A stretch of 26,213 nucleotides of DNA, from positions 1 to 26,213 of IMG/VR virus record IMGVR_UViG_3300025789_000136. One strand, 5' to 3'. Of this stretch, positions 2,470 through 12,092 are shown in pieces. The notes under the pieces are model-generated. The model saw nothing but the letters and a program-made list of their open reading frames with translations. It searched no databases and was not told the origin of the DNA. A program made the position numbers and the translations under genes. The DNA is from a virus. Numbering within the stretch: the first letter of the stretch is position 1; every line of letters starts with the position of its first letter.

Positions 2470-2790
2470 CTATTCCAATCGTTCGTAGTTACCTTCGTTA
2501 TCTATTCTAACAACCTTTACGCCGTGTAGGTGCAAAGGATATTCGGCGGGATTAGCCCATGACGGACACATCCAACCCTTCACCGTAGCCATTTGAGGAT
2601 TGAGGTGAATACTATTCGTGCCGAGATTGTGGCACTTATGATGAACGGCAATCAGGTTGCTCACTTCATCTTTACCGCCGCGGGATTTTAGTTTGCGATG
2701 ATGTAGGGCAAAGTCGTCACCGGGCAATCCACACGCTTCGCAATATCCTTTAGCGCGAGCCAATACCGTCTCAGCAATTTTCTTATCCAC
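2470..2790 (-). CDS. HNH endonuclease
   Basis: 106 residues from GTG 2790, overlapping the end of the peptidase gene by eight bases. Two TTG codons (2805, 2802) are alternative starts. It has a compact HNH motif: YCEACGLPGDDF (first zinc pair and knuckle), HHRKLKSRGG, then SNLIAVHHKCHNL (second half with catalytic and zinc-binding His/Cys/Asn). Small free-standing HNH proteins near terminase genes often take part in phage DNA packaging, but homing-type activity is equally possible. The frame stays open upstream to 3027, but that extension lies opposite the peptidase gene's reading frame and shows no family features. Confidence 0.85.
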   Translation of the reverse strand: MDKKIAETVLARAKGYCEACGLPGDDFALHHRKLKSRGGKDEVSNLIAVHHKCHNLGTNSIHLNPQMATVKGWMCPSWANPAEYPLHLHGVKVVRIDNEGNYERLE

Positions 2791-3316
2791 GCTTTTGCTC
2801 AACAATGAGGAATGGGGGAGCGGTGTATGGGTCTTTGTCGGCAGCAATCGTGAGAGCCTTCTTAATACTTGCACCCTGCTTAAGCGCCCCAATAGCAAGG
2901 CTACTGCCACTACCAATCCCATAGATACCGTCAGAATCAAGACAAATAGCGAAATCATCAGCAATATCAAAGACTTCACCGTTAATTGCAACCAAGAAAG
3001 CAAATCGCGTTTCTTCATCTTTATCATCTTCTAACTTGAGGTCATTATCTTTGAAACATTGCTTGAGTGCCGGAATAAATTTAGAAATCATAAAATGGTA
3101 CAAATCTTTTTTGTCGGCTTCGGTTGGCTTTGGTGGATTAAATATGTGTTGAGCCACATCGCAAAAACTAGACAAGCCAGCACCGGCAATTAGGTATTGA
3201 CCGCGTTCGGTTATTTTGACCATTTTAGGATGCGTGTATTTGCGGGTTGCCGTAACCAATGAATCTGCCCCGATAACCACTTTGTCGGCATATTGTCGGG
3301 CAACGATTGTGGTCAT
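2783..3316 (-). CDS. HslV/proteasome beta-like Ntn-hydrolase peptidase
   Basis: 177 residues, the size of bacterial HslV. After removal of Met1 the N-terminus is TTIVARQYADKVVIGADS. Numbered from that Thr, the sequence has Thr1, Asp17 and Lys33, the active-site set of HslV and proteasome beta subunits. A later GIGSGSSLAIGAL matches the conserved glycine-rich segment of the fold. It should form a self-compartmentalised threonine peptidase or a relative of one. No HslU-type ATPase or proteasome alpha subunit is visible, so it would need a host partner, act alone, or assemble into something else such as a prohead protease. It is the first gene after a terminator and two repeat arrays, and runs into the HNH gene. 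Confidence 0.85.
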   Translation of the reverse strand: MTTIVARQYADKVVIGADSLVTATRKYTHPKMVKITERGQYLIAGAGLSSFCDVAQHIFNPPKPTEADKKDLYHFMISKFIPALKQCFKDNDLKLEDDKDEETRFAFLVAINGEVFDIADDFAICLDSDGIYGIGSGSSLAIGALKQGASIKKALTIAADKDPYTAPPFLIVEQKRG

Positions 3317-3417: not shown

Positions 3418-3446
3418 AGCCCCACACCCTTGAGAAATGTGGGGCT
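3418..3446 (-). terminator. Probable rho-independent terminator
   Basis: A perfect 9-bp inverted repeat, AGCCCCACA and TGTGGGGCT, with an 11-base loop. Read on the minus strand it is followed by TTTGTGCTTT, a broken T-tract. It lies between the SLT gene and the peptidase gene, so it would end the upstream operon. Confidence 0.6.
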
Positions 3447-3485
3447 AAGGCAGGCGACCGCGAGCGCAATCAACTGGAGGTAATC

Positions 3486-3542
3486 ATGCGCTCAAGCAGT
3501 CGTATCTTCACGGGTAGGGAACGGCCTTCCCGTGAAATCTAG
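3486..3542 (+). other. Possible 18-codon plus-strand leader ORF with a strong hairpin inside
   Basis: GGAGGT at 3476-3481 lies four bases before an ATG that opens an 18-residue ORF (MRSSSRIFTGRERPSREI). The second half folds into a stem of 12 pairs with one bulged T (3507-3519 with 3525-3536) and an AACGG loop. A G-T pair in the stem would be G-U in plus-strand RNA but C-A in minus-strand RNA, which favours a plus transcript. No plus-strand promoter was found. The rest of the gap 3447-3579 holds nothing else I recognise. Confidence 0.3.
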
Positions 3543-3579: not shown

Positions 3580-4011
3580 TCAATACCAGTAATGGCGATT
3601 CCAGAAGCGGAGTGCGTTGCAGGGGTTTCCATATCGGTCGGAAATATACCGCAATCCAACATTAACCTGAGTGCTAACGCTTGCTTTTGGAGACAGTCCA
3701 ATTCGCTGAGGTATGCCCCCGGCATGATAGGAAACCGTCAACCCATCCACCACTAATTTAACGGGAGTTATGTTGTAGGCGTTTGGTCGCCAATTACTCT
3801 CGTTAGTCCAGACGGTGACTAGGCATCTCCATTGGTAAGTGGAGTTCCATCCGTATTTATGAAGTTGTGATTGTGCATAGGCTTTCGCCGCTGCCGGTGT
3901 GCGCTCAATAGCATCCGTAAATGCTTTAGGGCTTTGCGCTACCGATGGGCTTGCAAACCCGATTCCTACCGCAAGAGCGGCGACTACAAGGAAACGAGTC
4001 TTGAACTTCAG
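3580..4011 (-). CDS. SLT/lysozyme-like secreted muralytic protein without a normal start codon
   Basis: 143 residues if counted from CTG 4011. The product begins LKFKTRFLVVAALAVGIGFA, then ASPSVAQS, a textbook signal peptide. The mature part resembles actinobacterial SLT transglycosylase/lysozyme-like domains: LHKYGWNSTYQWRCLVTVW, NESNWRPNAYN with the presumed catalytic Glu, HAGGIPQ, and a closing GLRYISDRYGNPCNAL then FWNRHYWY. The frame is open back to a stop at 4074 but holds no ATG, GTG or TTG. Options are a CTG start inside a CTGA overlap, a +1 frameshift from the short ORF at 4075, or a one-base sequence error. The likely role is peptidoglycan cleavage outside the membrane. Confidence 0.75.
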   Translation of the reverse strand: MKFKTRFLVVAALAVGIGFASPSVAQSPKAFTDAIERTPAAAKAYAQSQLHKYGWNSTYQWRCLVTVWTNESNWRPNAYNITPVKLVVDGLTVSYHAGGIPQRIGLSPKASVSTQVNVGLRYISDRYGNPCNALRFWNRHYWY

Positions 4012-4046
4012 CGCGAACCAATCGCCGCCTGTTCCATAGCGCTCAT
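4008..4046 (-). other. 12-codon ORF overlapping the SLT gene start
   Basis: ATG 4046 has GGAGG six bases upstream and encodes MSAMEQAAIGSR. It shares ATGA with the preceding 10-codon ORF and CTGA with the first codon (CTG) of the SLT signal peptide. It could be a coupling leader or chance, if the SLT gene is read from the upstream ORF by frameshifting. Confidence 0.35.
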
Positions 4047-4075
4047 CGTGTGCCTCCGTTGTTAAGTGCGTTCAT
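4043..4075 (-). other. 10-codon ORF, possible true N-terminus of the SLT gene
   Basis: ATG 4075 follows AAGGAGGT with six bases of spacing, the best ribosome binding site here, and encodes MNALNNGGTR then TGA. One base of +1 shift at the CGA TGA end joins it to a frame reading ERYGTGGDWFALKFKTRF and on into the SLT protein. A GGAGG four bases before CGA TGA resembles the arrangement of the prfB +1 frameshift site. Confidence 0.4.
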
Positions 4076-4600: not shown

Positions 4601-4616
4601 TTTATTCTCCAGTTCT

Positions 4617-4637
4617 TTGAAGTGCCGTTCACTTCAA
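4617..4637 (-). promoter_or_regulatory. AACGG-loop hairpin, copy A
   Basis: Minus-strand TTGAAGTG, loop AACGG, CACTTCAA: a perfect 8-bp stem. It begins about seven bases after the predicted -10 box, so the RNA would start with this hairpin. It ends about 16 bases before the start codon of the gene at 4600, whose CTGGAG lies in the gap. Confidence 0.75.
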
Positions 4638-4644
4638 TAAGACA

Positions 4645-4673
4645 AATGTAGCCGCAATAGGTTACGGCTTCAA
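4645..4673 (-). promoter_or_regulatory. Predicted promoter before the gene at 4600
   Basis: TTGAAG (4673-4668), 17 bases, TACATT (4650-4645). The bases right after the -35 box are CCGTAA, as in the promoter at 7340-7368. An inverted repeat AGCCG/CGGCT spans the spacer (4669-4665 and 4654-4650) and could be an operator. The 130-base gap 4601-4730 holds this promoter and hairpin; a 60-codon ORF through it looks spurious. Confidence 0.6.
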
Positions 4674-4730
4674 GCCAAAACGCCATTTTTCTTTGTGAGT
4701 TGCGCCACATAGAATCTGGACATTTAAGGG

Positions 4731-4973
4731 TTATTTGTCTAATGCCCCGTGTGCGGCGTAGCCCTGTATGTCCAGCCAAGAATCCTCGTAATCGGGATTG
4801 ACCGAGATGCGTTGAAGTTTTAGGGCAATCATCATCTGAGCAACTTGATAGGGCGCTAAGGAATAGGGCAGGTCAAGAATGACACCCCACATAATCCCTA
4901 TCTTGCGAAAGTTTTCAGTCGGGTCGCCGTATTGTTCTTGGCGTTCATTAAGAATATCGCTTAGCCGCGCCAT
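4731..4973 (-). CDS. DUF6378-like small phage protein
   Basis: 80 residues from ATG 4973 (GGGAG six bases upstream); an earlier start would run deep into the preceding gene. The order RLSDILNERQEQYGDPTENF, then YQVAQMMIALKLQRIS and NPDYEDSWLDIQGYA, matches a common phage family whose hallmark is an N-terminal ERxxxYG and a central MxxxKxxR and DsxxDxxGY helix. This resembles MazG/dUTPase-like all-alpha nucleotide pyrophosphohydrolase relatives, but activity is unproven. It overlaps the 48-residue gene before it by 13 bases. Confidence 0.78.
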   Translation of the reverse strand: MARLSDILNERQEQYGDPTENFRKIGIMWGVILDLPYSLAPYQVAQMMIALKLQRISVNPDYEDSWLDIQGYAAHGALDK

Positions 4974-5107
4974 GGTCGCTCCCATCCGATGTAAATGCAA
5001 ATTAGATTTAAGTCAAAACCCAATCGGTCAATTTGCAGACCAAGATTAAATCCCCGGATTGTTCCCCAATGAATCCAGCCTTTGCCAATTTGTTTTTCTT
5101 TATACAT
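4961..5107 (-). CDS. 48-residue protein of unknown function
   Basis: Starts in a TAATG junction with the microprotein before it. Reads MYKEKQIGKGWIHWG, then FNLGLQIDRLGFDLNLICIY and IGWERPWRG. The alternating hydrophobic pattern suggests a small beta-rich fold, of a kind seen as short hypothetical proteins in phages. Function unknown. Junctions with both neighbours support it being real. Confidence 0.65.
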   Translation of the reverse strand: MYKEKQIGKGWIHWGTIRGFNLGLQIDRLGFDLNLICIYIGWERPWRG

Positions 5108-5211
5108 TATTTGACCCATTTCTTTTTGGCGGCAAAATATCCGTAGATTCCAAACGCAATGCCTACGGTGTCAATAAACGCAACCCACAACAGGGCAAGT
5201 TTCACAATCAT
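5107..5211 (-). CDS. 34-residue membrane microprotein
   Basis: Starts in an ATGA overlap and ends in a TAATG junction. The sequence is MIVKLALLWVAFIDTVGIAF followed by GIYGYFAAKKKWVK: a hydrophobic span with a basic tail, so a single-span inner-membrane peptide with the C-terminus probably in the cytoplasm. It could be a small holin-like or superinfection-related protein, but nothing in the sequence decides this. Confidence 0.65.
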   Translation of the reverse strand: MIVKLALLWVAFIDTVGIAFGIYGYFAAKKKWVK

Positions 5212-5390
5212 CGCTGAGGTGTCCAATTCACTCGGTAACTCTTTGCAAAGACGGTTAACTCAAAGATGCGATTGTTCGCGTAATAACTTGGCATGAGGCG
5301 CAACTTTAAGTATGGCTTGCGGCGCTTGTACCGAGGAAAGATTGAAAGGTGAACTTCTCGCCCAAAGATTCTTTTACGAAATGTTTTCAT
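5208..5390 (-). CDS. Basic 60-residue protein of unknown function
   Basis: Overlaps the gene before it by 17 bases and hands over to the membrane microprotein with ATGA. Very rich in Arg/Lys and aromatic residues (RKRIFGREVHLSIF, RYKRRKPYLKLRLM). A nucleic-acid-binding role is plausible from charge alone. No family recognised. Confidence 0.6.
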   Translation of the reverse strand: MKTFRKRIFGREVHLSIFPRYKRRKPYLKLRLMPSYYANNRIFELTVFAKSYRVNWTPQR

Positions 5391-5625
5391 TTGGCAATCC
5401 GTTCTTTACTATGGCAATCGCGGCGTTCTTGGTACGAACAGAAGCGCCGTACCAATCAGATGAAATGCTTGTTGGTGTTTCTAGTTCTTCAAGGTCTTTG
5501 GCGATTTCTTTGCGCAAATTTTCAGCAAATTGGTCAAGAAGCATAACCCGCTTGTTGATTTCTTCGGTAGGGTATCCGACTTCTAATAGAAAATTAGCCA
5601 ATCTAGTTACAGATTTTTCAGTCAC
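5374..5625 (-). CDS. Helical protein of unknown function (GTG start)
   Basis: 83 residues from GTG 5625, which forms a GTGA overlap with the FmdB-like gene; GGGGAGG lies about ten bases upstream. Longer versions of this frame run through the FmdB-like gene and are rejected. The middle reads INKRVMLLDQFAENLRKEI then AKDLEELE, a probable coiled coil, followed by WYGASVRTKNAAIAIV. Function unknown. Confidence 0.68.
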   Translation of the reverse strand: MTEKSVTRLANFLLEVGYPTEEINKRVMLLDQFAENLRKEIAKDLEELETPTSISSDWYGASVRTKNAAIAIVKNGLPNENIS

Positions 5626-5792
5626 TTGCTGCCTCCCCATCCCCCACCGCGGAATATCGCCGGTGTTGCCTGAATAACCTTTGACATAGGTTTTTCGCAC
5701 TTTACGCAATCAGGAATCGAATCATCGTAGAAACTCTGATGCAGTTCCATAAACGCTTTACATTCCTTGCATCGGTACTGATATGTAGGCAT
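5622..5792 (-). CDS. FmdB-like zinc-ribbon protein
   Basis: 56 residues. It opens MPTYQYRCKECKAF and continues with CVKCEKPMSKVIQATP and AIFRGGGWGG, the classic layout of the FmdB/CxxC-CxxC family of small zinc ribbons (MPxYxYxC, two CxxC pairs, then a Gly-rich end). It has TAATG and GTGA junctions with its neighbours. Family members are thought to regulate or chaperone other proteins; the role in phages is unknown. Confidence 0.85.
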   Translation of the reverse strand: MPTYQYRCKECKAFMELHQSFYDDSIPDCVKCEKPMSKVIQATPAIFRGGGWGGSK

Positions 5793-6160
5793 TAAAGTTC
5801 ACCCCCACAATGCTTGCAAGTTTTGGTCTTGCGCTGAGAAATTTCACGCGATGATATGAAATTGGGATGAACATAAATGGCACACTTGTTACGCGTTGCC
5901 TTGAGTCGGACAATGTAATTCTCACGATTCAAAACAGAGAGAAGTCCCGATACCGTTCCATGATGCCAGCCAGTCAGGTCGCCTAGTTCTTTCCATGTCA
6001 AACCTGCTTCACCGGCTTCGGCAAGAAGAAACATTGCCTTGCGTTGACGGCTGCGAGTCGTGCCATTCTTGTCAGCCGTAATAGCGCGTTGTTTGCTTGT
6101 CTCAGTTCCCGACCAGCCCGAAGTGCCGGCATAAGGAAGTAATGGCAACTCTTCGTTCAT
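5792..6160 (-). CDS. Winged-helix DNA-binding protein
   Basis: 122 residues from ATG 6160, an ATGA overlap with GGGGGAAAAG upstream. A winged-helix core is visible: QRKAMFLLAEAGEAGLTWKE then LGDLTGWHHGTVSGLLSVLN and a wing NYIVRLKATRNKCAIYV. A disordered N-terminus precedes it, and the C-terminus ends TCKHCGGEL, half of a zinc site or a short tail. Likely a transcription regulator or replication accessory factor. The MarR-like helix suggests DNA binding, with the target unknown. Confidence 0.75.
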   Translation of the reverse strand: MNEELPLLPYAGTSGWSGTETSKQRAITADKNGTTRSRQRKAMFLLAEAGEAGLTWKELGDLTGWHHGTVSGLLSVLNRENYIVRLKATRNKCAIYVHPNFISSREISQRKTKTCKHCGGEL

Positions 6161-6405
6161 TTCTTTTCCCCCAATGCAATCTGAGCGCATAAATCTTGTA
6201 CCGTCAAAGCGGTCTTATCAATACCGTTCTTGACAATTTGCGCACGATTGGTTGTTAAATCTAAGGCGCAAATCTGCTCGTAAATGTGTAAGCGGATTGT
6301 TGCCTCAATCGCCTTAATCATGTCCACCTGATTGCCTTCTGGAGTCTCAAGGCGAACCTGATTGTCTTTGATGTACCAATGGTTTTCTTTGCAAACGATT
6401 TTCAT
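6157..6405 (-). CDS. Unknown 82-residue protein
   Basis: Has ATGA junctions with both neighbours. Begins MKIVCKENHWYIKDNQVRLE, a small beta hairpin, followed by helices (MIKAIEATIRLHIYEQICAL, ALTVQDLCAQIALGEKK). No family recognised. Confidence 0.7.
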   Translation of the reverse strand: MKIVCKENHWYIKDNQVRLETPEGNQVDMIKAIEATIRLHIYEQICALDLTTNRAQIVKNGIDKTALTVQDLCAQIALGEKK

Positions 6406-6494
6406 TTGGTCAGCCTTTCCTCAATGTCAAACACGATGGATAGAAATACAATGGTAATAACCGGCAAGCCTACTAGCAATAGAACCTCAATCAT
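6402..6494 (-). CDS. 30-residue membrane microprotein
   Basis: Starts inside the end of the gene before it, nine bases after GGAGG, and ends in an ATGA overlap with the next. Sequence MIEVLLLVGLPVITIVFLSI then VFDIEERLTK: one membrane span with a charged cytoplasmic tail. Short single-span proteins in the same coupled position occur at 5107, 8768 and 10651. Confidence 0.65.
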   Translation of the reverse strand: MIEVLLLVGLPVITIVFLSIVFDIEERLTK

Positions 6495-6777
6495 TTTCCC
6501 ATGCCTCCGACTCGTAGTTGGTAAGGATTACATATTCAAGGGTTGCGCTATCAAATACGGTCTGCGACTCATATCCGCGAGCCGACAGGAATTGCTGACA
6601 GACAAGGATGTTGAGCCAATTAGGTTCGCACCAGTACGCCATCTTCCATGTAAAAAGTGGCTCGCCATCAAAACGATTAACTTGTTTTGCCCAATCCTTA
6701 CCCCATCGCATTGAACTGTTATGAAGGCGGTCAAAGTCTGAATCGGTAATCGTGACGGTAAAAGTTGCTGATGCCAT
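6487..6777 (-). CDS. Unknown 96-residue protein
   Basis: Starts in a TAATG junction. Opens with strands (ATFTVTITDSDFDRLHNSS) and contains many aromatic residues (FTWKMAYWCEPNWLNILVC), ending acidic (ESEAWEND). No family recognised; part of the block of small genes between RusA and the SLT gene. Confidence 0.7.
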   Translation of the reverse strand: MASATFTVTITDSDFDRLHNSSMRWGKDWAKQVNRFDGEPLFTWKMAYWCEPNWLNILVCQQFLSARGYESQTVFDSATLEYVILTNYESEAWEND

Positions 6778-7016
6778 TATGCGCCTACCTTTTTAGAATT
6801 AGGATTCCACAAACGATAATTTTGAATTGTGCAATAAGTTAAACGCTCGTCAATAATTGCTTTTGCTTCTTCTAAGTTTTTCGCATACGCAATTGCCAAA
6901 CGGCTAACTGAGCCTTCGCTATCCATTTTAATAACAATTCTGTTTTTAATACCGCGGCCAAAACGCACACCGCGGTATTCGTAACGACCGTTTTCTAGTC
7001 TTGTTACTTTTTCCAT
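6777..7016 (-). CDS. Unknown 79-residue protein
   Basis: ATG 7016 is chosen because GGTAGG lies eight bases upstream; an in-frame GTG at 7025 would overlap the preceding stop. Contains a beta-like start (RLENGRYEYRGVRFGR) and IAYAKNLEEAKAIIDERL, an AP2-like or similar small strand-strand-helix pattern. It ends NSKKVGA, and the gene before it also ends KVGA. The function is unknown. Confidence 0.72.
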   Translation of the reverse strand: MEKVTRLENGRYEYRGVRFGRGIKNRIVIKMDSEGSVSRLAIAYAKNLEEAKAIIDERLTYCTIQNYRLWNPNSKKVGA

Positions 7017-7017
7017 G

Positions 7018-7296
7018 TTATGCACCTACCTTTGCATATTTAGCAAGAGTTGCGTCAACACGCTTGATAACCATTTCTGTATATTGCATTGGATTGTGAC
7101 GGCGCATTAAATATTCTTTTGCCTCGCGCAATGAATTGTGTTTAATGCCACGGAACTCGCCGTCTGATTCTGTTACATACCAACCGCTTGAACCACGACC
7201 CCAAAGTTGACTGCCGTCATATTTTCCAATGCGTTCACCAGTTGATGCAATGTAATCGCCGTAAACATCTTTGGTGAAAGTTACTGTTGTTTCCAT
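7018..7296 (-). CDS. Unknown 92-residue protein with an HNPxQY C-terminus
   Basis: CTGGAG lies nine bases before the ATG. The N-terminus is beta-like (TVTFTKDVYGDYIASTG); then SLREAKEYLMRRHNPMQYTE. The HNPxQYxExV block near the end also closes the otherwise different protein at 11702-12019, and both genes are first behind an AACGG-hairpin promoter. The function is unknown. Confidence 0.75.
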   Translation of the reverse strand: METTVTFTKDVYGDYIASTGERIGKYDGSQLWGRGSSGWYVTESDGEFRGIKHNSLREAKEYLMRRHNPMQYTEMVIKRVDATLAKYAKVGA

Positions 7297-7313
7297 TTTC
7301 TTCTCCAGTTCTA

Positions 7314-7328
7314 CCCCGCCGTTCGGGG
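7314..7328 (-). promoter_or_regulatory. AACGG-loop hairpin, copy B
   Basis: Minus-strand CCCCG, loop AACGG, CGGGG, extendable by one G-U pair. It lies 11 bases after the predicted -10 box and 17 bases before the start codon, with CTGGAG between. Confidence 0.75.
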
Positions 7329-7339
7329 CTTATGGGTAA

Positions 7340-7368
7340 ACAGTAAACCCGACACCTTACGGTTGCAA
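7340..7368 (-). promoter_or_regulatory. Predicted promoter before the gene at 7296
   Basis: TTGCAA (7368-7363), 17 bases, TACTGT (7345-7340). CCGTAA follows the -35 box directly, as in the promoter at 4645-4673. It sits in the short gap after rusA and would start the small-gene operon. Confidence 0.6.
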
Positions 7369-7385
7369 GTATTTCCGGCAAGAAT

Positions 7386-7784
7386 TTATGTGATGTCGGT
7401 CACACAATCCCACGCATCGGAAATCTCAATATCCACGCCCGGAATGTCCGAATAGACTTTTTTAGCCTTTATGTCTATCACCTGAGAATCGTCAAGGTAA
7501 GCACACGCCGTAAGCGAATCCAGCACCCCGCGAACGAGTTTGTCCAAATCCGGTGCGACCGTAGGAAAATCGCGTTTGACCGTTTTAGGCTTTTTGAGGC
7601 GAAAGGTCATGGCAATCGAAATCGGGTCAGGGATTGGCTCGCATCCTGCTTGTTTAGCCGCCAGAGCAATCAGCGCCCGCCATGTGGCAAGTTCTGTTGC
7701 CCGCGAATGAATCATGCGCCCATTGCCAATGTGCTTCATTGACCCTTGCGGAATCGGAGTGCCTTCCACCCCGAATCGAATCAT
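7386..7784 (-). CDS. rusA: RusA-family Holliday junction resolvase
   Basis: 132 residues from ATG 7784, an ATGA overlap with the gene before it. The order FGVEGTPIPQGSMKHIGNGR, MTFRLKKPKT, then PTVAPDLDKLVRGVLDSL, and AYLDDSQVIDIKAKKVYSD matches RusA: Asp residues in PDLDKL and LDDSQV and the Lys of KAKK are the family's catalytic positions. It resolves branched recombination or replication intermediates before packaging. It lies at the downstream end of the recombination module that includes the ERF protein and the Cas4-like nuclease. Confidence 0.92.
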   Translation of the reverse strand: MIRFGVEGTPIPQGSMKHIGNGRMIHSRATELATWRALIALAAKQAGCEPIPDPISIAMTFRLKKPKTVKRDFPTVAPDLDKLVRGVLDSLTACAYLDDSQVIDIKAKKVYSDIPGVDIEISDAWDCVTDIT

Positions 7785-7972
7785 AATTCGATGGTGACTT
7801 TTTCTCCTGTTGCTACAAAGTGGCACTTCGGATTGCCCGATGAATCACGGAGGCGAAAATCGCGCCCGGTGCTTTCATCCTCAATCGAAGTCACTCCATA
7901 GCGGGTCGCGCCGAGAACCAGCACATCCCCTACTTCTACCTGCTCAACTGCTACCAAATGAATCAGTTTCAT
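7781..7972 (-). CDS. Small beta-rich protein of unknown function
   Basis: 63 residues with GGGGGAAC before the ATG and an ATGA handover to rusA. Sequence pattern (LVAVEQVEVGDVLVLGATRY, then VTSIEDESTG and HFVATGEKVTIEL) looks like a small beta barrel. Short proteins of this look are common next to replication genes in actinophages. Function not known. Confidence 0.72.
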   Translation of the reverse strand: MKLIHLVAVEQVEVGDVLVLGATRYGVTSIEDESTGRDFRLRDSSGNPKCHFVATGEKVTIEL

Positions 7973-8015
7973 TTGTTCCCCCTTTCGGTGTTCCAGTATG
8001 GCATAGATTACTTAC

Positions 8016-8771
8016 TTACGGCAAATCGGGTAAACGGTTCAAAACAGACTTGACGAAATCGGGCATTGGAACGCCCTCAGAGACATCTTCAGCGGTAAAC
8101 CTAGGTGGCGTATAGGTAGGAGTGGTAATCAGGCTTCTAGCGCCATTCTCGGGCGTTCTAGGCGGTAGTGGTTCATCGCTCCACCTGCCTTGATTGAGCC
8201 ATGTAGCAGGATGCGCCGTGAATTGCGGCTGGCGATTAGGGTCTGCTGCGTAACGGCGAGCGCCTTCAAGAATCTCTGCAAGTGTGGCATTAGACAAAGC
8301 GCGCTGGAATACCTTACGGGCTTCCTGCTTTCCAGCCTTTCTTGGATAGATTTCCCAAAACTCGTCAAAGCCTTCTTTTATATTGTCTTTATCTTCCTCT
8401 TTATCTTTATCTTTATGGTTGAACGAATGTTCAACGCCCGTTGAACGAACGCTGAACGACCGTTGACCAGCCTTTGAAGCCTTCTCGGATTTTTCCCGAA
8501 CCTTCTCAAGGTCGTTGTCAATGCGAGTATGCGACCAAGTATCGCCGTCAATCCAAAAGAACTCGGCAAGAATGTCTTTGTTCGCTTCCCATTCTTCGCC
8601 GGTCATGCGAGCGACATATTGCAATCGCTCGTTGGTGTTGTCCAGCGGCTTACCCTTTTGCCAGTAATTCATCAAAAGCAAAAGATATGCGCCGTGTTGT
8701 TGCGCCGTAAGGTGTGCGGTGTCGGCAAGATAGTCGCTGACATACAGTTGCATATATGGCAGCGAACTCAT
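8016..8771 (-). CDS. DUF1376-type phage replication protein
   Basis: 251 residues from ATG 8771 (ATGA overlap with the microprotein before it). Residues about 4-100 match DUF1376: LPYMQLYVSDYLADTAHL, then TAQQHGAYLLLLMNYW and DTWSHTRIDNDLEKVREK. A charged linker (residues about 100-135) leads to a C-terminal helical domain, FDEFWEIYPRKAGKQEA then FTAHPATWLNQGRW, typical of phage replication/helicase-loader proteins. The linker DNA carries five 11-bp repeats and a pyrimidine-rich tract, suggesting that the gene contains the replication origin, as lambda gene O does. It probably recruits the host helicase. Confidence 0.87.
   Translation of the reverse strand: MSSLPYMQLYVSDYLADTAHLTAQQHGAYLLLLMNYWQKGKPLDNTNERLQYVARMTGEEWEANKDILAEFFWIDGDTWSHTRIDNDLEKVREKSEKASKAGQRSFSVRSTGVEHSFNHKDKDKEEDKDNIKEGFDEFWEIYPRKAGKQEARKVFQRALSNATLAEILEGARRYAADPNRQPQFTAHPATWLNQGRWSDEPLPPRTPENGARSLITTPTYTPPRFTAEDVSEGVPMPDFVKSVLNRLPDLP
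8371..8472. repeat. Five 11-bp iteron-like repeats plus pyrimidine-rich tract; candidate replication origin
   Basis: Five 11-bp units follow each other without gaps at 8418, 8429, 8440, 8451 and 8462: GTTGAACGAAT, GTTCAACGCCC, GTTGAACGAAC, GCTGAACGACC, GTTGACCAGCC. The first two also form a 7-bp inverted repeat. Beside them, 8371-8416 is AT-rich with almost only pyrimidines on the plus strand (repeats of TTTATC). In the gene's direction the repeats come first and the tract second, the same order as iterons and AT-rich region in lambda gene O. The repeats are seen directly; origin function is inferred. Confidence 0.6.
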
Positions 8772-8845
8772 AACGCCCACACAATCAAACAAAATACGGC
8801 AATCGCGCCGCAAATGAGATACGGCAAAATCTTTTCGTCAATCAT
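8768..8845 (-). CDS. 25-residue membrane microprotein
   Basis: ATG 8845 has GGGGGC a few bases upstream, and the stop shares ATGA with the DUF1376 gene. Sequence MIDEKILPYLICGAIAVFCL then IVWAL: one membrane span after a short charged head. Its position makes it a translational coupler for the replication gene even if the peptide has its own role. Confidence 0.6.
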   Translation of the reverse strand: MIDEKILPYLICGAIAVFCLIVWAL

Positions 8846-8858
8846 TTACTGCCCCCGG

Positions 8859-9107
8859 TTATTTAATCTTGGCTACAAAATCTATGGCATTTGCCCATAA
8901 GGAATCAATCCACGCAACGAAGTCAGACTTCTCTGATGAGTTGACCCAAACATTCTTTTCCTCGTTCATCAACCAAATAAGTTCGGTTTTGATTTCGTTC
9001 TCAATGTTTGCCTCGTATTCACGGGCGCGCTGAACTAAATCATGGCACTCACATTTGGTGATGTCTGCTTCTAGGCATCGGTCATTGTGGCGATGGATGA
9101 AAGCCAT
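8859..9107 (-). CDS. Unknown protein with His/Cys-rich N-terminus
   Basis: 82 residues from ATG 9107, chosen for GGAGG six bases upstream; a GTG at 9134 would add nine residues. The start FIHRHNDRCLEADITKCECH is rich in His and Cys and could bind a metal. The rest is helical, with acidic and aromatic residues. It follows the WhiB-like gene. Family not recognised. Confidence 0.7.
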   Translation of the reverse strand: MAFIHRHNDRCLEADITKCECHDLVQRAREYEANIENEIKTELIWLMNEEKNVWVNSSEKSDFVAWIDSLWANAIDFVAKIK

Positions 9108-9130
9108 TATCGCCTCCTGCATAATCGTTT

Positions 9131-9499
9131 TCACATTAAATCCCTCTCCACATTTGATGCCTCAACTATTTCCTCAAAAGGTACTCCGAACTCTTCCAAA
9201 TCTTTGAAAAGTGGCGACAAAATGCGCGAGTCGTAATTACCCTTCACAATGTCGTGGCGCTCCAAACTTGCAACGCCGCCCCACATTCCATAACGCTCAA
9301 AAGCAAAACCGACTTCTAAGCATTGCTGGCGAATCGGGCAACGAAAACAAATCTTACGAATCTGCTTGTGCGCCATCGCTTTGTTCTTGAGCAAATCTTC
9401 TTCCATAAAAAAGAAATCGGTATTCAATCCCCGGCAATTAGCCTTCGACCAATCAACCGCGCTTCTGTCAACAACTTTCTTTTCTACTTTCCCTGACAT
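9131..9499 (-). CDS. whiB: WhiB-family Fe-S transcription regulator
   Basis: 122 residues overlapping the nuclease gene by 16 bases. It has the four Fe-S cysteines of WhiB/Wbl proteins: Cys22 (NCRGLNTDFFF), Cys51 and Cys54 (KICFRCPIRQQC), Cys60, then the turn motif FERYGMWGGVASLER. The region after the turn is acidic rather than the usual basic AT-hook-like tail, so DNA contact may depend on sigma factor binding. Wbl proteins are confined to Actinobacteria and their phages and bind the primary sigma factor. Phage versions can repress host wbl genes or control phage transcription. This gene is the strongest host clue in the window. Confidence 0.92.
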   Translation of the reverse strand: MSGKVEKKVVDRSAVDWSKANCRGLNTDFFFMEEDLLKNKAMAHKQIRKICFRCPIRQQCLEVGFAFERYGMWGGVASLERHDIVKGNYDSRILSPLFKDLEEFGVPFEEIVEASNVERDLM

Positions 9500-10140
9500 C
9501 CTGCAACCCCCGTTTGGTCATAATATGAACAGTATTCACGGCAGAAGAACGCCGCACTTCTTTCCGGCGCGGGTGGGGTTTCCATCGCCTTCACATCGGC
9601 AACCCATTGACGGGCTTCCTCAACAAGTTTTGGGTCGTACTCGCCTTCCCAAACACGAATGTCTGACATCTTTCCATCACGCGGAATGAATACCAGTCCA
9701 ACCTTCTTAACTGGATATTTCTGCGCAATCATGCTCGCGTAAATGTTCACTTGCATTTTCTGTTGTTTGTTAGGCAAACCGCCCTTTTGCATCTTTGCAA
9801 GTGTGACAGTTTTCCAGTCATAAACCGCTTCGGCTTTGCGCGAGTAGAAATCGGCGTGACCTTTGAAGAACTCATCGCTAAGCGATTCCTCAAGAATAAA
9901 ATCATCGCCAAAAACATCGTGCGCGGCTAGGGCTTCGGCAATAACCGTGTGCATTGCCGTTCCCATAATTGCTGCCAGCGATTCAGTATCGTGATTGGTT
10001 TTGGAAGTTTGGTTGAGGATATGCCACGCCTGAGTGCGACAACCCCCAACCGAACTCGCTCCCAACTCAGTCTGCACCGAGCGTTCGCGTTGACTGTCGG
10101 CTTCCCTCAAAGCCGTAGTCAATGTTTTAATGATGTCCAT
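9484..10140 (-). CDS. Cas4/RecB-like PD-(D/E)XK nuclease
   Basis: 218 residues, TAATG junction with the gene before it. Motifs in order: SSVGGCRTQAWHIL (first Fe-S Cys, about residue 33), MGTAMHTVIAEAL (His motif), FKGHADFYSRKA (motif II Asp), AVYDWKTVTLAK (motif III Asp/Lys), KQQKMQVNIYASMI (QxxxY). The C-terminus FFCREYCSYYD then GVAGCQGK adds three Cys, completing a four-Cys Fe-S set as in Cas4 and AddB. It is probably an exonuclease that makes single-stranded DNA for the ERF-type annealing protein encoded nearby. No CRISPR genes are present, so a CRISPR role is not implied. Confidence 0.88.
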   Translation of the reverse strand: MDIIKTLTTALREADSQRERSVQTELGASSVGGCRTQAWHILNQTSKTNHDTESLAAIMGTAMHTVIAEALAAHDVFGDDFILEESLSDEFFKGHADFYSRKAEAVYDWKTVTLAKMQKGGLPNKQQKMQVNIYASMIAQKYPVKKVGLVFIPRDGKMSDIRVWEGEYDPKLVEEARQWVADVKAMETPPAPERSAAFFCREYCSYYDQTGVAGCQGK

Positions 10141-10307
10141 TACTCACCAAAGTTTTCTACTGCGTGTTGAATAAAGTAACGAATCATTTGTGCTGGCTTC
10201 ATGTCCAGAGATGCGCATATCTCATTAAACTTCACCTTTTCGGCTTCCGAGATGCGAGTCTCAATCTTTGCTTGCTTGTCGGTTGCGTATGGCGATTTCC
10301 AACTCAT
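10140..10307 (-). CDS. Small ribbon-helix-helix-like DNA-binding protein
   Basis: 55 residues with a TGATG junction before and a TAATG junction after it. After a short basic head, KIETRISEAEKVKFNEICAS then LDMKPAQMIRYFIQHAVEN has the strand-helix-helix pattern of CopG/Arc-type repressors. It may autoregulate the recombination genes or bind replication DNA. It is too short to be found by length filters but has clear family character. Confidence 0.78.
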   Translation of the reverse strand: MSWKSPYATDKQAKIETRISEAEKVKFNEICASLDMKPAQMIRYFIQHAVENFGE

Positions 10308-10654
10308 CACAAGTCCAATGTTGCTTTGATTGAAGATGAGATAGAACGAGTGATGTCCACCTGTGTTTTGATGCGGGCAACATTTCCCCGGTGCGCCTTG
10401 ACCGTAGCCTCAGCAAAAGCAACTGCCTCATGCTTCTCGGCGTTGTCAATGAGCGCTTGGTCGTCACGCATTACCACGGTCATTTTCATATCAGGATGAG
10501 AGTTGCGCATACGCGATTTAGCCATGGCTATTTCGTAAACGGCTTTCAATGTTGAGTATTGAGTCTCGGCTTCCACCAAGGCGTTATGTGCCTCATCCAT
10601 TTCAAGGCTGAGGTCATACAAGCGCTTTTCAACTTGTTGTGGTGTTAGGCTCAT
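10307..10654 (-). CDS. Coiled-coil protein between ERF and nuclease genes
   Basis: 115 residues from ATG 10654 (ATGA overlap with the microprotein before it); the frame is open further upstream but that part belongs to the microprotein. Mostly heptad-like helix: QVEKRLYDLSLEMDEAHNAL, VEAETQYSTLKAVYEIAMAK, and a second helix near the end. Position between annealing protein and nuclease suggests an accessory factor of recombination; the family is not recognised. Confidence 0.72.
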   Translation of the reverse strand: MSLTPQQVEKRLYDLSLEMDEAHNALVEAETQYSTLKAVYEIAMAKSRMRNSHPDMKMTVVMRDDQALIDNAEKHEAVAFAEATVKAHRGNVARIKTQVDITRSISSSIKATLDL

Positions 10655-10767
10655 AGGTAATACTTCCCATACAAGTAAGCCGCTGCGCAAACAACGACAA
10701 GCCAGAAAGCCCATGAACCGAATGAACGGAAGATGGAACGGTCGTTAGTACCGGTGGGGTGCATCAT
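10651..10767 (-). CDS. 38-residue membrane microprotein
   Basis: Begins with ATG ATG two bases after the ERF gene's stop (GGAGG lies 13 bases upstream of the first ATG) and ends in an ATGA overlap. Sequence MMHPTGTNDRSIFRSFGSWA then FWLVVVCAAAYLYGKYYL: a soluble head and one membrane span. Function unknown. Confidence 0.65.
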   Translation of the reverse strand: MMHPTGTNDRSIFRSFGSWAFWLVVVCAAAYLYGKYYL

Positions 10768-10769
10768 GC

Positions 10770-11333
10770 TCACTTGGTCGCCTCCAATTCCTTCTTGCGA
10801 GCAGAGATAACCTTGTTCAATGTTGTTCCCTCAACAGGAATCTGAAGCAATCCTGCATCTTGTGCGCCGGTGTAGAACAACTTAAGTTCACCAACAGAAG
10901 TAATCTCTGGCACTTGACTGATTGCTTCGATTGCTAGATTGATTTGTTCTTCGGTAAATGTAGGTGCAGATGCAGTTACGCGAGCATCCTTTTCCATGTC
11001 CTGACGAGTAGGGCGCTCTGGCTTCTTGGTAACTGGATTAGTTCCCATAAATCCAATCAGGCTGAGTGCGCGACCCGTTGCGCTCGTACACGCATTTTCC
11101 AAGGCGCTCGCACGATTGACATTTGATGAACCAACCATCTCTTCTGCAAAGTCTTGACCCTTTAACACATCGCCAAAAAAGACTTGTGCGCGAACAATGT
11201 ATTGAATTGGCTTGCCATCTTCATTGCGTTCTACATGAACCAAATCATTAACGATTCGCAAATCTGGATGTGTGTCCAATGCGCGTTGCAAGCGTTCTGC
11301 AACTGTTTCGTAATTATCTAAATTAAAACCCAT
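10770..11333 (-). CDS. ERF-like single-strand annealing protein
   Basis: 187 residues from ATG 11333, which has AAAGGA seven bases upstream; an ATG at 11351 has no good site. Motifs typical of ERF/Sak-like annealing proteins: NYETVAERLQRALDTHPDL, the strand QYIVRAQVFFGD, then NVNRASALENACTSATGRAL followed by SLIGFMG. The A-[LE]-E-x-A-x-[TS]-x-A-x-GRAL core is the family signature. It anneals complementary single strands during phage recombination and replication, working with the Cas4-like nuclease, SSB and RusA. It heads an operon behind its own promoter. Confidence 0.85.
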   Translation of the reverse strand: MGFNLDNYETVAERLQRALDTHPDLRIVNDLVHVERNEDGKPIQYIVRAQVFFGDVLKGQDFAEEMVGSSNVNRASALENACTSATGRALSLIGFMGTNPVTKKPERPTRQDMEKDARVTASAPTFTEEQINLAIEAISQVPEITSVGELKLFYTGAQDAGLLQIPVEGTTLNKVISARKKELEATK

Positions 11334-11352
11334 CACCGTTCCTTTGTTCATC

Positions 11353-11366
11353 TGCCCCGTTTGGCA
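11353..11366 (-). promoter_or_regulatory. AACGG-containing hairpin, copy D (weak)
   Basis: Minus-strand TGCC, loop AAACGG, GGCA: only four pairs and a six-base loop, but it lies eight bases after the -10 box as in the other copies. Listed because position and loop agree; alone it would not be convincing. Confidence 0.4.
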
Positions 11367-11374
11367 TTGGGTTT

Positions 11375-11404
11375 AGAGTAAAGGTTACGGTTATCGAAAG
11401 TCAA
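11375..11404 (-). promoter_or_regulatory. Predicted promoter for the recombination operon
   Basis: TTGACT (11404-11399), 18 bases, TACTCT (11380-11375), pointing at the ERF-like gene. It lies back to back with the plus-strand promoter at 11409-11436 in a 109-base divergent region. Confidence 0.6.
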
Positions 11405-11408
11405 GGAT

Positions 11409-11436
11409 TTGTAAGATATATTTTTCGTGTCATAAT
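11409..11436 (+). promoter_or_regulatory. Predicted promoter of a leaderless gene
   Basis: TTGTAA (11409-11414), 16 bases, CATAAT (11431-11436), then six bases and ATG. The expected transcription start, about seven bases after the -10 box, coincides with the A of the start codon. Confidence 0.6.
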
Positions 11437-11442
11437 GGCGAC

Positions 11443-11634
11443 ATGATTAGCGTGAGAATCCGAGCCTATGAACTGGAAGTTGAAGTTCAATCGTCTGAGT
11501 CGCATCCAGACGCATTAACTGATGCCGCCAATCGCGCAACCACGGCTTTTGTTATGGCAATCAATACGATGAAAGCAAGCGAGATTGAGTTATACGATGC
11601 TGACCGTTTGCCGAATAACGAGGAATTAGAGTAA
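11443..11634 (+). CDS. Only plus-strand gene; small protein of unknown function, probably leaderless
   Basis: 63 residues: MISVRIRAYELEVEVQSSES, then ALTDAANRATTAFVMAINTM, and an acidic tail ADRLPNNEELE. A strand-strand-helix fold is likely. No ribosome binding site precedes the ATG; instead a -10 box ends six bases before it, so the mRNA probably begins at the start codon, a common arrangement in Actinobacteria. A strong terminator follows. Independent promoter, terminator and opposite orientation suggest a regulator or a gene expressed at a different time (early, or lysogeny-like state), but no DNA-binding motif is seen. Confidence 0.75.
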   Translation: MISVRIRAYELEVEVQSSESHPDALTDAANRATTAFVMAINTMKASEIELYDADRLPNNEELE

Positions 11635-11662
11635 CATTCGCATCCCCCGCAATGACAAATAA

Positions 11663-11700
11663 CCCCTAGGCAATCCTGCACCTAGGGGTTTTTGTTTTTA
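11663..11700 (+). terminator. Rho-independent terminator
   Basis: CCCCTAGG (11663-11670), ten-base loop, CCTAGGGG (11681-11688), then TTTTTGTTTTT on the plus strand. It ends the plus-strand gene. On the minus strand only a short T-run follows the stem, so it may also weakly end the convergent gene at 11702. Confidence 0.9.
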
Positions 11701-11701
11701 A

Positions 11702-12019
11702 TTATGCTTGTGCTGCAATGCGGCTCATAACATTTTCAATGTATTGAGTTGGGTTGTGGGCTATGCGCTTTGCATATTCAATTTTGCCCTTAAGTTCAGC
11801 AACCATCTCTGCACCCATTTCGTTAACTTCAGCCAAGTTAACTGACTCGTAAGCAGACAATGTTTTTTCCAATTCAGGAAGTGAAGCAATCATTTTTTCT
11901 GCATTGCGCTTGTATTCTTCGCGGCACTCAGCGGGTGTGTGAGAACGAAGATATTTCTTGCCTGACTTTTTGGATGTTGCCCATTTGCGCCATCCGCCGC
12001 AGTAATCGCAAGTTTCCAT
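11702..12019 (-). CDS. Unknown protein with N-terminal zinc site and HNPxQY C-terminus
   Basis: 105 residues with CTGGAGG before the ATG. Residues 4-32 hold Cys4, Cys7, His27 and Cys32 (CDYCGGWRKW, SHTPAEC), a possible zinc finger. A long acidic helix follows (IASLPELEKTLSAYESVNLA), and the end AHNPTQYIENVMSRI matches the end of the protein at 7018-7296. It forms a single-gene transcript between promoter C and the terminator at 11663-11700. The function is unknown. Confidence 0.75.
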   Translation of the reverse strand: METCDYCGGWRKWATSKKSGKKYLRSHTPAECREEYKRNAEKMIASLPELEKTLSAYESVNLAEVNEMGAEMVAELKGKIEYAKRIAHNPTQYIENVMSRIAAQA

Positions 12020-12039
12020 TTGAATCCTCCAGATTCATA

Positions 12040-12054
12040 ACCCGCCGTTCGGGT
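12040..12054 (-). promoter_or_regulatory. AACGG-loop hairpin, copy C
   Basis: Minus-strand ACCCG, loop AACGG, CGGGT, eight bases after the -10 box. Compared with copy B the outermost pair changes from C-G to A-T, which keeps pairing. Confidence 0.72.
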
Positions 12055-12062
12055 ATGGCATA

Positions 12063-12092
12063 AGGATAGACCCGCCCGCGCCTTTGGCGCAA
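12063..12092 (-). promoter_or_regulatory. Predicted promoter before the gene at 12019
   Basis: TTGCGC (12092-12087), 18 bases, TATCCT (12068-12063). It lies just after the terminator-like hairpin that follows the metallophosphoesterase gene. Confidence 0.5.

Follow-up and report, generated by a model that had tools for sequence, protein, structure and literature searches.

A conserved two-hairpin element proposed to act as an antisense RNA on repeated promoter-leader cassettes of a phage family

Results

Three leaders with a common hairpin loop

The virus record IMGVR_UViG_3300025789_000136, whose whole length of 26,213 bases we analysed and here call the window, carries three promoter-leader cassettes (A, B and C), a further ribosome site (D) and a two-hairpin RNA element (R), which we propose to be the antisense partner of the others; all lie on the minus strand. 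In each cassette, sigma-70-like boxes are followed by a hairpin with a perfect stem and a G-C pair closing an AACGG loop, then by CTGGAG and an ATG. Leader A has its promoter (TTGAAG-17-TACATT) at 4645–4673, its hairpin (TTGAAGTG[AACGG]CACTTCAA, loop in brackets) at 4617–4637 and its ribosome site (AACTGGAG) at 4607–4614. Leader B has a promoter (TTGCAA-17-TACTGT) at 7340–7368, a hairpin (GCCCCG[AACGG]CGGGGT) at 7313–7329 and the same ribosome site (AACTGGAG) at 7303–7310. The promoter of leader C is weak (TTGCGC-18-TATCCT, 12063–12092); its hairpin, ACCCG[AACGG]CGGGT, occupies 12040–12054, and its ribosome site lies in a second hairpin, TGAATC[TGGAG]GATTCA, at 12021–12037. A preliminary description of this DNA had reported a promoter-hairpin unit in four copies. 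A, B and C agree with it in every part, including the compensatory pair change between B and C, and D, whose loop is not conserved, falls outside the unit. The CCGTAA noted there after the -35 box does occur in promoters A and B but is not general among relatives.

The leaders are not expected by chance. The window has 3 instances of G[AACGG]C on a stem of at least 5 pairs followed by CTGGAG and a start codon, and 300 dinucleotide-shuffled windows have none, while the plain count of AACGG in the window (83) has little meaning. Searches with two proteins of the leader region gave about 60 related loci (64 in the hairpin-loop count), and in these relatives both the loop and the pairing of A, B and C are conserved. 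Among hairpins before ribosome sites in the 64 loci, AACGG is the commonest loop (15 cases; the next has 7); these hairpins always have the G-C closing pair, on stems of 5–10 pairs that are almost completely different from one another. Across the relatives, 10 distinct leaders gave a covariation of 0.896 against 0.256 ± 0.070 after shuffling, with 93% of cells paired. Folding of single leaders is only modestly better than that of shuffles (z -1.6 to -1.9), and we regard the evidence for the leader hairpins as comparative, not energetic. Reading the leaders as a DNA operator, an inverted repeat for a repressor, was rejected: the half-sites differ completely while pairing is kept.

Promoter scores reach at least 7 of 12 sigma-70-like letters in 22 of 23 leaders, some of them weak, and the promoters end 6–12 bases before the hairpin. 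The leader B cassette precedes different genes in the window and in four relatives (L009, L165, L166 and L167). The leader hairpins have no T run and are placed before ribosome sites, and several leaders place the ribosome site itself within a small loop, as in GAATC[TGGAG]GATTC or GTTAC[TGGAG]GTAAC. Apart from these features, several leader promoters (window, L270, L530 and L531) share a motif resembling CCTTACGG / CCGTAAGG, a possible operator, in the spacer from the -35 to the -10 box. A further conserved leader, ATG(C/T)CATACTGGAACACCGAAAGGGGGA, precedes a gene for 63 amino acids at 7976–8004 of the window (minus strand) and at L009:4834–4861; it has the start TATGCCATAC in common with leader C but is without the AACGG hairpin.

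A two-hairpin element beside the HslV-like gene

A hairpin scan of the related loci brought out hairpins that carry CCGTTC in the loop and have CCTCCAG after them; these are the reverse complements of GAACGG and CTGGAGG, respectively. In the window this element, R, lies at 3455–3536, downstream of a transglycosylase-like gene (3580–4047, phrog_12661) and upstream of an HslV-family peptidase gene (2783–3316, phrog_1040) that served as a synteny anchor. Its first hairpin (H1) is TTCACGGGAAGG[CCGTTC]CCTACCCGTGAA, with loop 1 (CCGUUC, or GCCGUUC with the closing G) at 3519–3524. The second (H2) reads CGACTGC-TT-GAGCGCA...CCTCCAG...TGCGCTC-GCGGTCG, with loop 2, CCUCCAG(UU), at 3474–3480, and an intrinsic terminator follows at 3446–3418. 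The fold of R with its terminator has an energy of -61.6 kcal/mol and a z of -5.4. None of 300 shuffles contained a hairpin with a CCGTTC loop and CTCCAG behind it, and no Rfam family matches R.

A search with the HslV-like gene gave about 20 distinct copies of R beside it, usually just 3' of a transglycosylase-like gene. In these copies 95% of H1 cells are paired, with a covariation of 0.976 (0.219 ± 0.049 shuffled), and 97.5% of H2 cells, with 0.629 (0.177 ± 0.040). The H1 loop is CCGTT(C) in all copies examined but one (L222). When 13 related contigs were tested with a loose R pattern, 12 had it, each with a single R. Broad scans with leader and R patterns, which were loose and not exhaustive, so that R may exist elsewhere, gave only one relative (L353) with the R structure among the matches listed. 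An origin of R as an inverted duplicate of a leader was rejected: the leaders run from hairpin to ribosome site and R from CCGTTC to CCTCCAG, an order that an inverted copy would not have, and the hexaloop of R differs in geometry from the pentaloop of the leaders.

The distance from leader A down to R is 1.1 kb; R stands 3' of the operon that this leader heads, and a leader is likewise found 1–5 kb upstream of R in L130, L169, L173, L190, L207, L270, L530 and L531. No terminator was seen between promoter A and R, and one stands after R; R is therefore probably the 3' end of the A message.

Some further features of R and its likes may be recorded here. A two-base bulge (mostly TT) by GAGC/GCTC in H2 (window 3490–3495 and 3462–3465) is kept in relatives, where the outer stem varies freely; it may be a site for a protein or ribonuclease. 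A two-hairpin element with a 13–14 bp stem, a CCGTTC loop and a second covarying hairpin is present in L236, L266 and L537 (minus strand, about 19370, 13250 and 19785) and looks like an analogue of R; targets of this element were not found.

Complementarity and matched changes

Both loops of R match the leaders exactly: GCCGUUC (loop 1) is complementary to GAACGGC, and CCUCCAG (loop 2) to CUGGAGG, or with its flanking bases to (AA)CUGGAGG. Within the window, complementarity to loop 2 reaches 8 nt at the ribosome sites of A and B and 7 nt (CTGGAGG) at C, and at most 6, mostly 3, at the 49 other genes. As free duplexes, contacts of 7–8 bp are worth about -10 to -11 kcal/mol each.

Changes on the two sides go together in relatives. 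L190 combines the ribosome site AATGGAG with CTCCATT in R loop 2. Three distant phages (L270, L530 and L531) have GGAGGCAA in their leaders and TTGCCTCC in loop 2, and in the L181 group the leader is without CTGGAG and R without CCTCCAG. The leader loop of L130 is GGACGG, which can still pair with loop 1 by G-U. The longest perfect matches between R and leaders are 7–10 nt within a phage and mostly 4–6 nt, with a few of 7–8 nt, across the three groups. One R copy (L246:4128) has CCTCTTT in loop 2, and at least 3 start codons there follow the complementary AAAGAGG. This match is only suggestive; no leaders were found within the 9 kb of L246. In another copy (L222:3417, also L224) loop 1 has changed to CCTATC and loop 2 is CCTCCAG; these contigs have no AACGG leaders and keep ribosome-site hairpins of the form CTGAC[TGGAG]GTCAG.

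Site D

Promoter D (TTGACT/TACTCT) lies at 11375–11404. The hairpin behind it (11353–11366, TGCC[AAACGG]GGCA) had been counted as a fourth AACGG copy, but it is missed by the leader covariance model and folds no better than shuffles (z +0.38); in relatives its TGCC/GGCA stem is fixed and its loop varies (AAACGG, AACTTC, AATTTC, AACAAG, AATCCC). What is invariant, in 9 distinct aligned phages including the window, is the ribosome site AAGGAACGG at 11336–11344, while the flanking sequence drifts. Its GGAACGG is complementary to CCGUUCC of R loop 1 and is kept also in phages whose R has loop 1 only. D thus fits a single-contact target of loop 1, and this would account for the retention of CCGTTC in R copies that lack the loop-2 sequence (L135 and L181 groups). 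We take 11333 as the true start of gene D, because L130 has lost the ATG upstream of it.

Genome context

The genes of the window lie on the minus strand and include those for WhiB, RusA, a Cas4-like exonuclease, tail proteins (Dit-type, minor tail) and an endolysin; with this content, WhiB included, an actinobacterial host is likely. An intrinsic terminator (11661–11690, minus strand) stands directly 3' of gene C. No related phage carrying the DNA of the window was found in the annotated phage collection.

Discussion

Based on these findings, we propose that R is a trans-acting antisense RNA made by the same phage and that the leaders are its targets. R would dock by a loop-loop contact of its first loop, GCCGUUC, with the AACGG loop of the 5'-terminal hairpin on a target message; the second loop, CCUCCAG, would then cover the CUGGAG ribosome site by pairing and keep the leading gene of that message from being translated. 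Gene D would be contacted by loop 1 alone, directly on its ribosome site GGAACGG. As R probably arises from the 3' end of the promoter A transcript, it would exert feedback on A together with coordinate repression of B, C and D. From the comparison of genomes, R and the leaders very probably form one conserved complementary system; that R represses its targets by pairing we put at a probability of about 0.7. The sequences themselves show the folds, the complementary loops, the conservation of both and the matched changes; the production of R as a stable RNA, loop pairing inside the cell and a repressive outcome we infer.

Several points weigh against this proposal. The R–leader system is read from sequence and not from transcripts, and R itself lacks a convincing promoter. 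A 5-nt loop that is fully paired in a kissing complex would be tight and might require the closing G-C pair to open. The matched switches rest on few lineages, and in one of these, the L270 group, many genes that have no leader also use GGAGGCAA as ribosome site, so that loop 2 there follows the general site of the phage and not the leaders alone. Leaders in L191, L192, L209, L187 and L195 carry GAACGA, which leaves 5 nt matching loop 1, and for the changed loop 1 of L222, CCTATC, no leader or ribosome site with GATAGG was found.

The preliminary description had offered translation control as one option for the repeated unit of promoter, 5' hairpin and ribosome site, and the covarying stems and the conserved loop in relatives bear the unit out. 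It had also suggested a protein partner. RNA hairpins bound by proteins are common in phages, and a fixed loop on variable stems would also suit a phage or host protein that recognises the AACGG-loop stem, R being then an unrelated structured 3' end. Such a protein, however, gives no account of a conserved RNA in these genomes with exact complements to loop and ribosome site alike, in matching order, nor of the changes that L190 and the L270 group show on both sides, nor of GGAACGG at D; we consider it unlikely, and R, with one loop exactly complementary to the AACGG loop and the other to the CTGGAG site, is the better supported partner.

Equally improbable, in our view, is that R works without specific docking on AACGG, as a general anti-Shine-Dalgarno decoy or terminator directed to the preferred ribosome site of the phage. 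In the L270 group, and possibly in L246, several genes do have ribosome sites that fit the complement of loop 2, and H2 of L270 is itself a terminator; yet loop 1, the more conserved of the two, corresponds to the leader loops and to D and not to ribosome sites at large, and within the window complementarity to loop 2 is confined to the leader genes. The finding of one leader before different genes in relatives (leader B of the window against L009 and L165) would also be expected if the leaders were mobile promoter cassettes like the PeSLs discussed below, with hairpins serving mRNA stability or recombination and no regulator. The stems of the copies differ almost totally, which is poor for homologous recombination, and the loop is what stays; as R too would go unexplained, we hold this to be very improbable.

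If R is an antisense RNA of this kind, the comparative evidence points to one phage RNA with a two-part address, a docking loop and a ribosome site, that serves several promoter-leader cassettes. Known phage antisense RNAs mostly have one neighbouring gene as target. The R system would be a purely RNA-based coordination of phage genes, in hosts from which, as actinobacteria, Hfq is probably missing. For the wider picture the odds seem to us even: a phage family would run several operons by one repressor-like RNA, the hairpin leaders acting as operators and the RNA being the 3' end of one among its own target messages; loops and ribosome sites would co-evolve, so that genes that acquire a cassette join the regulon.

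Comparison with known systems

The preliminary statement that no described element has this form was too strong, as two systems, the PeSLs and the SAS of cluster K mycobacteriophages, are formally similar; by our tests none is identical. In the open-access literature, to which our search was confined, no described phage RNA of the R kind was found. The closest in working would be the c4 RNA of phages P1 and P7 (RF01695), which stops translation by pairing around a ribosome site through complementary stretches that probably lie in loops (PMC12197685). R would likewise be a phage-encoded structured RNA, and its loops are complementary around ribosome sites, over 7–8 nt for A, B and C. Whereas c4 controls the ant mRNA, R would have several targets, mostly distant, with a common docking hairpin. 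The RF01695 model gave no match in the window (E up to 1) and none at the gathering score in 7 relatives.

A first contact between complementary hairpin loops is also made by the plasmid RNAs RNAI/RNAII and CopA/CopT, which are cis-encoded and fully complementary to one target. The initial loop-loop contact would be alike; R differs in being trans-encoded and in having two short contacts.

The PeSLs of T4-type phages (Arbiol 2010, Comeau 2014), titled promoter-terminator motifs mediating gene shuffling, combine an early promoter with a stem-loop and are repeated before changing genes, as cited in PMC4503421. They resemble our leaders in having a promoter and stem-loop and in placing the same cassette before different genes, and they differ in the type of phage (the window codes for WhiB and for Dit-type and minor tail proteins) and in that the leader hairpins are not terminator-like. 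We know of no partner RNA for the PeSLs.

The SAS and ESAS motifs of cluster K mycobacteriophages are repeated over ribosome sites, about half of them with an upstream inverted repeat; their function is unknown, and their discoverers allowed for an RNA partner (PMC3203893). The likeness lies in a repeated ribosome-site motif in actinobacterial phages. The consensus at start codons, however, is GGGATAGGAGCCC, where leaders A–C read CTGGAG, and the SAS repeats do not support RNA pairing, whereas the leader stems covary. In Anaya (L552:10371–10383; JF704106.1 59870–59882), we observed a single antisense copy of SAS (GGCCTCCTATCCC) in a hairpin loop. The stretch is conserved in 147 mycobacteriophage records and kept in most Anayavirus types read. 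The loop is absent from Amgine, Pixie and Hurricane, and Amgine and Pixie retain SAS, so that the antisense loop seen in K1-type phages is not supported as a general rule. This hairpin is a possible, unproven partner RNA of SAS. The case of R suggests a route to hidden partner RNAs of other repeated ribosome-site motifs, of which the mycobacteriophage SAS is an example.

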